From the NCBI GenBank assembly GCA_025330725.1, contig JAIWND010000022.1:248001-312000 (forward strand): 64,000 nt of DNA, read 5' to 3'. Made by a program: the position numbers and the translations under genes. Within the stretch, counting starts at the first letter, position 1. The number at the start of each line of letters is the position of its first letter. Below are positions 34,861 to 50,859 of this stretch, piece after piece. This DNA comes from Chlamydoabsidia padenii. Taxonomy: Eukaryota > Mucoromycota > Mucoromycetes > Mucorales > Cunninghamellaceae. The notes beneath the pieces were generated by a model, which searched no databases, was not told the DNA's origin, and was given only the letters and a program-made list of their open reading frames with translations.

Positions 34861-35925
34861 ATCACTATGTCTTTTCCCCCGTTGATACCTTCTAGTTTAT
34901 ACTTATCATTAACCCCTCTTTATGTACTATTACTATTTACTCCCCTTCTCTTGTTACTTTGTAGAAAAATAAAATCATATCTCATCATTTGTATATCCTT
35001 CCATCTATTGGTCTTTTTTTTATTTATTTTATGCATGATACATTTGAATCGGCGATCAAATTGTGTCTCTTCCTACTGCCATATTGGTCTTTAGGAACAA
35101 AAAGAAAAAGAGGGGCTATGTATGTAAAACAGATGGCTTTATTAAAACAAACTGGATGTGGGGTTAAAATTATGTTATATACTAACGAGCTTCTGAAATC
35201 ACGCAACTTGAACTCTCGTCAGGCTTGAAAATGAGTACCGTGAAATCGCCTGAACACTCCATGACTCGCTCGGCAAGGCAAATCAACCCCGTCTACAGTA
35301 TCAGACACTATTTGATAACAATCCCTTCTATTACAGTATGATATATACTATTGTCAATGGTTATGTTTATTGATTTAACATTGATTGTATAAAATAGGGT
35401 TGGAAGGGGAGAGGGAATTCTATTCTGACTAAACTATGGGGATGTACCAAACCGCAATTAGTTCCACCATTAAACACCAGAAGAGAAGATCATCAAGAGT
35501 TCCACCGTGTATATCGTTACCCTTTGTGTAAAAAAGGACCTAGACACAGATTGACTTGATTTGTTTTGTCAAGTTATAAAGCCAGACGCAAGTCGAGTGA
35601 ATTCACTTTGCGTTAGTGTAAGTAATAGGAAGCCAATTGTTTCCTAGGTTAAAGATATCTGTAAGTCGTAGGTGTATCGTTCTGAATCGACATTGTTTCA
35701 ATAGTTAATTTGCCATGTTGTTGAAGGTTTAAAGAGTTGGAAAGAAAGAGGGAAGGGAAAATGCTTTGCAGAGTTGATAAAAGCAAAATTTCAAATCCCG
35801 GGAGGCTTATGTGTTTTCACCTAAAAAAGGTGATTCGCTCTGAACCCAGATTTTTGATAACTCTACTTTTTTTCTCCTCCAGATCTCTTTTTCTTCTTTT
35901 TTATTCAACTACTTTAATTACAACA
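34861..35925. other. intergenic, no supported gene
   Basis: The first part is the T-rich 3' flank of the zinc-finger gene, with AATAAA near 34970. The remainder has no continuous frame. TTTCAAATCCCG at 35789-35800 lies 126 nt before the SPB1 start codon, followed by a CT-rich leader. Confidence 0.5.
35789..35800 (+). promoter_or_regulatory. recurrent 12-mer TTTCAAATCCCG
   Basis: Exact match, 126 nt before the SPB1 start codon. Confidence 0.65.
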
Positions 35926-49012: not shown

Positions 49013-50859
49013 CTAGTAATCTTCATTATCAATTTCAGAGTCACCAAGGGAGTCCGAGCCTACTTCTTCATAATCTTTTTCCAGAGCAGCCAAGTCTTCA
49101 CGAGCTTCTGAGAATTCACCTTCTTCCATACCTTCACCCACATACCAATGGACAAAGGCACGTTTAGCATACATCAAGTCGAATTTGTGATCCAGACGGT
49201 TCCAAGCTTCGGCGATGGCAGTGGTATTTGACAGCAGACAACTAAAAAAGAAAGAAAAAAGTTGAATGGGTTGAGATATATCATTTGGAGGTATACTTAC
49301 CACTAATAAAAGAAGGTATCCACAGCAGGAGAGTAGGAGATCTATTGTTAGTATTCAAAAAAAAAAAAAAAGTGGTCATGCCAAAACAAAACAACTTACC
49401 CTAGAAGATTAAAGATTAAACGGCGTGAGTTGGTTTGTCAGCATACAATGTCAAAAGGAAATAATCAATTACTTACGCTAATCATTCAAAGGCACCCACA
49501 GACATAAAAGAGAAGATGAGTAAAACCAGTACATATATATATATATATATATCAATCCCACGCACGCCTCTATTGTTTGATTACCTCTTTGGACCTTGGC
49601 AAGGTCGCCACCACTGACAGTAGTAGGAGCCTTGCAATTGATACCAACCTTGAAACCAGTAGGACACCTAAATAATAAGAACAATAAAAAGATTAGTATA
49701 TCAATATCCCGACGATCCGACCCTACTTACCAGTCCACAAATTGAATAGTACGCTTGGTCTTGATAGTCGAGATGGCCACGTTCGTATCCTTGGGCACGA
49801 CATCACCACGATACAACAAACAACAAGACATGTATTTACCATGACGAGGATCACACTTGACCATTTGATTATTAGGTTCAAAGCAAGCCGAGGTGATTTC
49901 CTGCACCGACAATTGTTCATGATACGCCTTGGCAGCCGAAATGATGGGAGCATAAGTGACCAAAGGGAAATGAATCCGAGGATAAGGCACCAAATTGGTT
50001 TGGAATTCATTCAGATCGACATTGAGTGAGCCATCAAAACGAAGAGAGGCAGTGATGGAAGAGACAACTTGAGCAATCAATCGGTTGAGGTTGGAGTAAG
50101 TAGGTCGTTCGATATCCAAGTTGCGACGACAGATATCGTAGATGGCTTCATTGTCGACCATGAATGATACATCAGAGTGCTCCAAAGTGGTATGAGTGGT
50201 CAAGATGGAATTGTAAGGTTCAACTACCGCCGTGGAGACTTGAGGAGCAGGGTAGACAGAGAATTCAAGCTTGGATTTCTTGCCATAGTCAACAGAGAGA
50301 CGTTCCAACAAGAGAGCACCAAACCCGGATCCAGTACCGCCACCAAAAGAATGGAAGACGAGGAAGCCTTGAAGACCAGTACAGTTATCGGCTAATTTGC
50401 GCACACGATCCAGGACGGAATCCACCAATTCTTTACCCACAGTGTAATGACCACGCGCATAATTGTTGGCAGCATCTTCCTTACCGGTAATAAGTTGCTC
50501 TATAAAAATAAAAGGGGTTACAGAGAAAAAGAGGGGGGGGTTAAAGGGTTAGTAAGGAGTCAAGTGTGTGAGTGAGAGGAGGGGATCTTACCAGGATGGA
50601 AGAGTTGACGATAAGCACCAGTTCGGACTTCATCAACAACAGTGGGTTCCAAATCCACCATGACAGTTCGAGGGACATGTTTACCAGCACTTGTTTCACT
50701 GAAGAAGGTATCAAAAGAGTTGTCGTCCTGTTTGATATCGTCGACACCACTTTGTTGACCGTCAGGTTGAATGCCGTGTTCCAAACAATAGAGTTCCCAA
50801 CAGGCGTTACCAATTTGCACACCAGCTTGACCGACGTGGATGGAGATGACTTCTCTCAT
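49013..50859 (-). CDS. TUB1: alpha-tubulin with three 1-2 nt microexons
   Basis: Microtubule subunit. Exons 50592-50859, 49731-50499 and 49585-49667 cover [20 protein letters not shown], the GTP loop GGGTGSG, and [17 protein letters not shown] to KVQR. The last exon, 49013-49241, starts (T)TGT CTG CTG ([13 protein letters not shown]) and ends with NEDY. Direct joining of 49585 to 49241 shifts the frame. Frame and the canonical 450-aa length are restored by microexons C (49477), G (49400) and TG (49301-49302). Each lies between a TAG acceptor and a GTAAGT donor. The junction becomes VQR-A-C-CLLSN, where relatives have VQR-A-V-C-x-LSN. See the finding. Confidence 0.95.

Follow-up and report, generated by a model that had tools for sequence, protein, structure and literature searches.

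An alpha-tubulin gene of Chlamydoabsidia padenii (Mucorales, Cunninghamellaceae) appears, from its genomic sequence, to carry three chained exons of 1, 1 and 2 nt in its message. The gene lies in the window, that is, the whole 64,000-nt stretch of DNA that was analyzed (contig C15:248001-312000 within the 34.2-Mb assembly). The region concerned very probably consists of three coding exons of these lengths set among four small GT-AG introns of the ordinary kind. Chained exons of 1-2 nt would call into question the lower size bound for exon recognition.

All features of the gene are on the minus strand. Exon 1 (50592..50859, 268 nt, ATG at 50859), exon 2 (49731..50499, 769 nt) and exon 3 (49585..49667, 83 nt) are followed by the last exon (49013..49241, 229 nt including the stop). 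Exon 3 ends with CAA AGA G, in phase 1 of an Ala codon, the last exon starts with T TGT CTG CTG, and the 343-nt interval between them holds ATTAG-C-GTAAGT, TCTAG-G-GTAAGT and ATTAG-TG-GTAAGT. By sequence and enumeration, each microexon (C, 49477..49477; G, 49400..49400; TG, 49301..49302) is flanked by complete GT-AG introns, namely intron 1 (49478..49584, 107 nt, GTAATC..ATTAG), intron 2 (49401..49476, 76 nt, GTAAGT..TCTAG), intron 3 (49303..49399, 97 nt, GTAAGT..TTAG) and intron 4 (49242..49300, 59 nt, GTAAGT..TTTAG). A full TACTAAC is present in intron 3 only, ending 44 nt before the intron end. Use of all three microexons gives a CDS of 1,353 nt and 450 aa with a single terminal stop. The microexon positions proposed in the first-pass annotation proved exact on this strand, and its intron lengths, restored frame and 450 residues were reproduced by the reconstructed CDS. 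If the chain is spliced, the predicted cDNA of the window gene or its paralogue on contig C51 would read AGAGC(G/T)TGTTGT across codons 373-376, with the junctions AGAGCGTGTTGT (window gene) and AGAGCTTGTTGT (C51).

The microexons are required for the frame and for a conserved motif. Among the subsets tried in the window gene, the frame was restored by C, by G or by all three, and was broken when the 343 nt were removed as a single intron and when TG, C+TG, G+TG or C+G were used. The annotation had also noted that the two single-base subsets restore the frame, which they do, and had added that each needs a single intron of over 230 nt; from the coordinates this holds for C (235 nt) and fails for G (184 and 158 nt). 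Splicing paths were enumerated with at most 5 GT-AG introns of >=40 nt, and a right-length product with conserved flanks was required. One- or two-intron GT-AG paths gave no such product in C15 or C51. With up to five introns, right-length paths numbered 5 in C15 and 6 in C51, and VQRACCLLSNT was obtained from the chain only, in each gene.

A spliced-alignment script was given the protein of a third paralogue (C14) alone, with splice-site scoring and a varied intron penalty. Exons of ..83,1,1,2,226 nt were recovered in C15 and ..64,1,1,2,229 nt in C51, and no exon <27 nt was called in C14 or in the fourth gene, C29. With site scoring on, the chain was found in C15 and C51 at intron penalties of 10, 13 and 16. 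At a penalty of 20 a single 1-nt exon was picked in both genes, with one residue lost. With site scoring off (penalties 5 and 8), C15 was resolved as 2, 2 with poor sites (R-V-C-C), and C51 still as 1, 1, 2.

Motif statistics were calculated for the interval, the window and the genome. The interval holds three matches to YAG-N(1-2)-GTAAGT; among 20,000 dinucleotide shuffles of it, 31 had one match and none had more. Across the whole window, TAGNGTAAGT was observed 3 times against 0.23 expected, and YAGNNGTAAGT once against 0.53 expected, so that the 2-nt site taken by itself does not exceed chance. The third TAGNGTAAGT of the window, at 35614-35623 on the plus strand (TAGTGTAAGT), has no evident gene context in the surrounding stretch. 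The bare TAGNGTAAGT is not enriched genome-wide (380 matches vs. 587 for a reversed control), and the case therefore rests on clustering, frame and conservation. GTAAGT is the donor at 6/6 tubulin microexons; since 9/18 other tubulin donors are likewise GTAAGT, donor strength alone says little.

The genome search returned four alpha-tubulin genes (C14, C15, which is the window gene, C29 and C51). C14 is intronless at the chain site and reads GTA AAC CGT GCT TGT TGT TTA TTG (V N R A C C L L), hence R-A-C-C-L-L-S-N, in agreement with the prediction from the chain. The unusual A-C-C, which the annotation had remarked on as A-C before CLLSN in place of A-V-C, is thus the native sequence of the closest paralogue. 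The protein of C14 itself is in the database (P0082, 'tubulin alpha-3 chain [Chlamydoabsidia padenii]') and is one of the five among 227 retrieved proteins with RACC. C51 holds CATTAG-C-GTAAGT, TTATAG-T-GTAAGT, CTCTAG-TG-GTAAGT and TTACAG-TTGTTTG, giving GCT TGT TGT and again R-A-C-C. Its microexons 1 and 3 are C and TG as in the window gene, and the one difference, G to T in microexon 2, falls on the silent third base of Ala. TACTAAC is present in 4/4 C51 chain introns, 16-57 nt before the intron end. Divergence between the two genes is considerable, with agreement at 109/177 fourfold sites and 399/448 residues. Alignment of their corresponding chain introns gives scores no higher than shuffled sequence does (48, 39, 140 and 138 of 200 shuffles score as high or higher), yet all splice sites of the chain are kept. 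Ultra-small exons are thus conserved in a relative with diverged introns. The same 1, 1, 2 chain with a synonymous change in C51, together with the A-C-C of C14, strongly supports the three-microexon reading that the annotation had put forward.

The main competitor is that splicing includes a single 1-nt exon, either C or G, while the two remaining sites lie as decoys in a longer intron, leaving one residue missing. Such a reading restores the frame and was the alignment script's preference at the highest penalty in both genes. It is nevertheless very unlikely, as it deletes a residue at a place where none of 24 chosen fungal relatives has a one-residue deletion (23/24, chosen from 120 matches listed, carry R-A-X-C, and the other, P0083, is an aberrant model there), and it leaves the retention of all three sites in C51 despite intron divergence, and the A-C-C of C14, against it.

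Recursive splicing is a generally known system for comparison with the chain of three microexons. Passages on it are found in PMC4674806, and stwintrons have been described in fungi (excerpts of PMC9024468 and PMC12403724). In the cases these excerpts describe, as in the chain, several introns act as one complex insertion and are probably removed in order. An explanation of the interval by a stwintron or by zero-nucleotide recursive splicing, in which removal of one intron creates the next donor, is exceedingly improbable, although sequential splicing is likely in the tubulin chain as well. No internal intron interrupts a splicing element of an external one, every donor and acceptor being complete before splicing, and 1 or 2 bases needed by the frame stand between each AG and GT, so that no AG-GT or AG-TAAGT junction without an exon base is required. 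The chain thus differs from the systems in those excerpts in having no split donor and no zero-length exon, and its intervening bases are predicted to enter the mRNA. A decaying gene copy, with the interval a frameshifted remnant and its splice-like sites incidental, has next to no probability: the annotation had raised a non-expressed copy with an intact paralogue elsewhere, and an uninterrupted paralogue does exist on C14, but protein constraint on the window copy is strong (450 aa intact, and 433/448 residues identical to C14, yet 149/205 fourfold sites the same), and coincidence would be needed to account for the C51 chain and for those in other conserved genes.

Similar chains turned up elsewhere in the genome. 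In all, chains were found in eight genes (two tubulins, two VCX1 copies, one Rac and three Rho1). The gapped patterns that were run over the organism's own genome require strong donors and allow for only a few spacings, which makes eight a floor and not a census. Family names rest on conserved motifs and, for VCX1 and HSP104, also on matches to solved structures. The VCX1-type Ca2+/H+ exchanger is present as two near-identical copies ~400 kb apart (C12:1450943 and 1848810). Both read ATT GGG-A-A-T GCC GCT (G N A A E H), with two 1-nt exons completing the Asn codon and introns of 75, 99 and 72-73 nt, and this is the only right-length solution in either copy. Residues 4-147 of the 156-aa spliced fragment align gap-free to a vacuolar calcium ion transporter (4k1c, E 7.8e-57).

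The remaining chains fall in P-loops. The Rac/Cdc42-type gene (C29:13132) reads GTT GG-AA-AA-ACT TGC (V G K T C) as its sole solution. In the Rho1-type paralogues on C56, C71 and C27 the reading is GGA A-A-(G/A/G)-ACT (G K T). Three exons contribute to their P-loop Lys codon, two of them 1-nt exons in a row, of which the second is the silent third base. The solution is unique in two of the paralogues, and in C27 a second path gives M in place of the P-loop Lys. Numbered on GGN AAR ACT, introns follow bases 2, 4 and 6 in Rac and bases 4, 5 and 6 in Rho1, so that two intron positions are shared. Between the Rho1 paralogues, 3/9 intron comparisons are still similar (0, 2 and 4 of 200 shuffles) and 6/9 are not (48 to 200 of 200). 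For this reason the conservation argument is weaker for Rho1, whose copies do not have the independence of the tubulins. Single ultra-small exons were also recorded. An HSP104/ClpB-type gene (C34:138862) has one 1-nt exon (T) as a unique solution, and a 26-residue fragment matches ClpB gap-free. A gene at C25:129884, which we take to be an MFS-type transporter from its motifs only, has one 2-nt exon (GG) with two solutions, of which only this one has good sites.

A strict donor-branch-acceptor-N-donor scan gave 3 forward matches against 1 for the control, and all 3 were chains (the C51 tubulin and the two C12 copies). For the other gapped scans, forward and reversed-control counts were 3/6, 17/98, 18/111, 9/12, 7/14, 2/30 and 18/37, the control being a rough one because reversed patterns differ in composition. 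As reversed matches exceed forward ones in every scan but the strict one, the patterns serve as a net for candidates and not as a measure of enrichment. In the 17-match scan (control 98), 7 sites were read in addition to two places already known, and in the 18-match scan with control 111, 5 sites were read. The 9-match and 7-match scans contained four and two chain sites, and their other ten matches were judged by eye. One site of the 2-match scan (control 30) was read. In the 18-match scan with control 37, four matches were recognized, among them C56, which was new and was fetched, and 14 were seen as matched strings only. Four loci (L043, L049, L051 and L066) were ordinary exon starts on reading, five others that were read (L035, L040, L055, L057 and L068) stand as candidates, and L070, L072-L079 and L082 were judged by eye and not taken as microexons. 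A search of the 64-kb window against Rfam gave no match at gathering scores.

A mechanism can be proposed for the tubulin chain. The microexons, with one flanking base on each side, would supply the Ala-Cys codons (GCG TGT) of alpha-tubulin. Exon definition is hardly applicable to 1 nt, and introns of 57-165 nt with full terminal signals fit intron definition; each tubulin intron of 59-107 nt would be recognized as its own unit, and stepwise removal is most likely. Neighboring introns would be removed in turn, since simultaneous occupation of a 3' and a 5' splice site with 1-2 nt between them is hardly feasible. The annotation had favored recursive or stepwise splicing in which each microexon regenerates a donor. 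Its stepwise part is likely to stand; strict regeneration does not apply, as each donor is already present before any splicing.

The first chain intron seems to be the oldest part of the arrangement. In C29, which reads A-V-C, a single 76-nt intron occupies that position in phase 1 of the Ala codon, so the first intron looks old and the three downstream look added. A chain common to two diverged paralogues is itself old, by common descent or by an old transfer between C15 and C51, which is possible. A recent gene conversion between them is unsupported at fourfold sites (5' part 92/147 the same, 3' part 17/30); their 3' proteins are identical at 77/78 residues. C14 is without all four introns at its 3' end, and by its sequence probably lost the chain together with introns through an mRNA-mediated route. 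The replacement of Val by Cys in tubulin may have followed from a requirement for TG, and not GT, ahead of a donor.

As protein length is unchanged, introns would have been gained without added codons, adjoining an existing intron. Reverse splicing near a junction is a model of intron gain. The chain could possibly have arisen in this way, or by base loss rescued by a cryptic exon, the latter being an idea of the Fusarium CYP621A authors (excerpts of PMC12940212). Tandem intron duplication finds no support as the origin in the C15 chain, where the introns are unlike one another (in pairwise comparison, 49 to 194 of 200 shuffles equal or exceed the observed score). With mononucleotide shuffles, some intron pairs scored above most shuffles in C51 (1-4 and 2-3, 1/200 each; 2-4, 5; 1-2, 6) and in VCX1 (2-3, 2/200; 1-3, 3), which shared T-rich tracts may explain.

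Taken across genes, we lean slightly towards a lineage in which sub-codon exons of 1-2 nt, chained two or three at a time, form a genome-wide class located at strongly conserved codons in core genes (Rho/Rac P-loop Gly-Lys, VCX1 Asn of GNAAEH, tubulin Ala-Cys). Single codons would be built from three exons, arising from repeated intron gain beside an existing intron and read by a purely intron-defined, stepwise spliceosome. Such runs in eight genes of one small fungal genome, at error-intolerant codons, would show that the spliceosome sets no practical minimum on exon length and can do without exon definition. The chains would be a compact natural system in which to study the order of splicing and side-by-side intron gain.

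Single-nucleotide exons are already known; among the open-access literature found, nuclear ones were confined to three gene families (APC11, VPS55 and CYP621A), and no run of exons of 1-2 nt was found. They are described in Arabidopsis APC11 (PMC4674806) and in plant APC11/VPS55 (PMC8831610). As far as the excerpts of these papers go, those genes resemble the chain in having a 1-nt coding exon between two GT-AG introns that was missed by annotation, GTRAGT donors (VPS55), intronless relatives, and stepwise removal that was proposed or supported. They have one such exon per gene, whereas here two or three are consecutive, in a fungus and in several unrelated genes. For microexons in plants, removal tends to begin with the downstream intron (PMC8831610, in excerpt). 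The one-nucleotide exon of Fusarium CYP621A is, according to its authors, the second of its kind and the first from a fungal gene, and was confirmed by RNA reads (PMC12940212, in excerpt). Like the chain, it comes from a fungus, contributes a single base to a codon within a conserved motif and was inferred from an intronless relative; unlike the chain, it is, in the part of the paper available, a single exon of one gene family in Ascomycota. Consecutive very small exons are described in excerpts on plants (adjacent microexons of 5 and 12 nt; PMC8831610, PMC11096116) and on human RPS24 (3, 18 and 22 bp, alternatively spliced; PMC11162997); these are larger (3-22 nt), and neither, as excerpted, is a run made up of 1-2 nt exons. 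A 1-bp mitochondrial exon is described in placozoan cox1 (excerpt of PMC5436844).

Gene models may be wrong at such motifs. In the alpha-tubulin record of Absidia glauca (P0083), 18 aberrant residues (CTYPVSSHRTHPPIISHS) replace the five of V-Q-R-A-C, at the same place and directly before C-L-L-S-N, as if the last chain intron had been read through. Judged from the protein alone, its codons read backwards would fit a 58-nt last intron that starts with GTAAG and ends with AG-T. Among the Rho1 matches listed, no entry was from Chlamydoabsidia or Absidia by name. As a counterpoint to the warning on gene models, the Mucorales rho1 records among the matches listed have intact P-loops, and GKT is present in all 120 Rho1 matches listed (116 GKTCLL, 4 GKTSLL).
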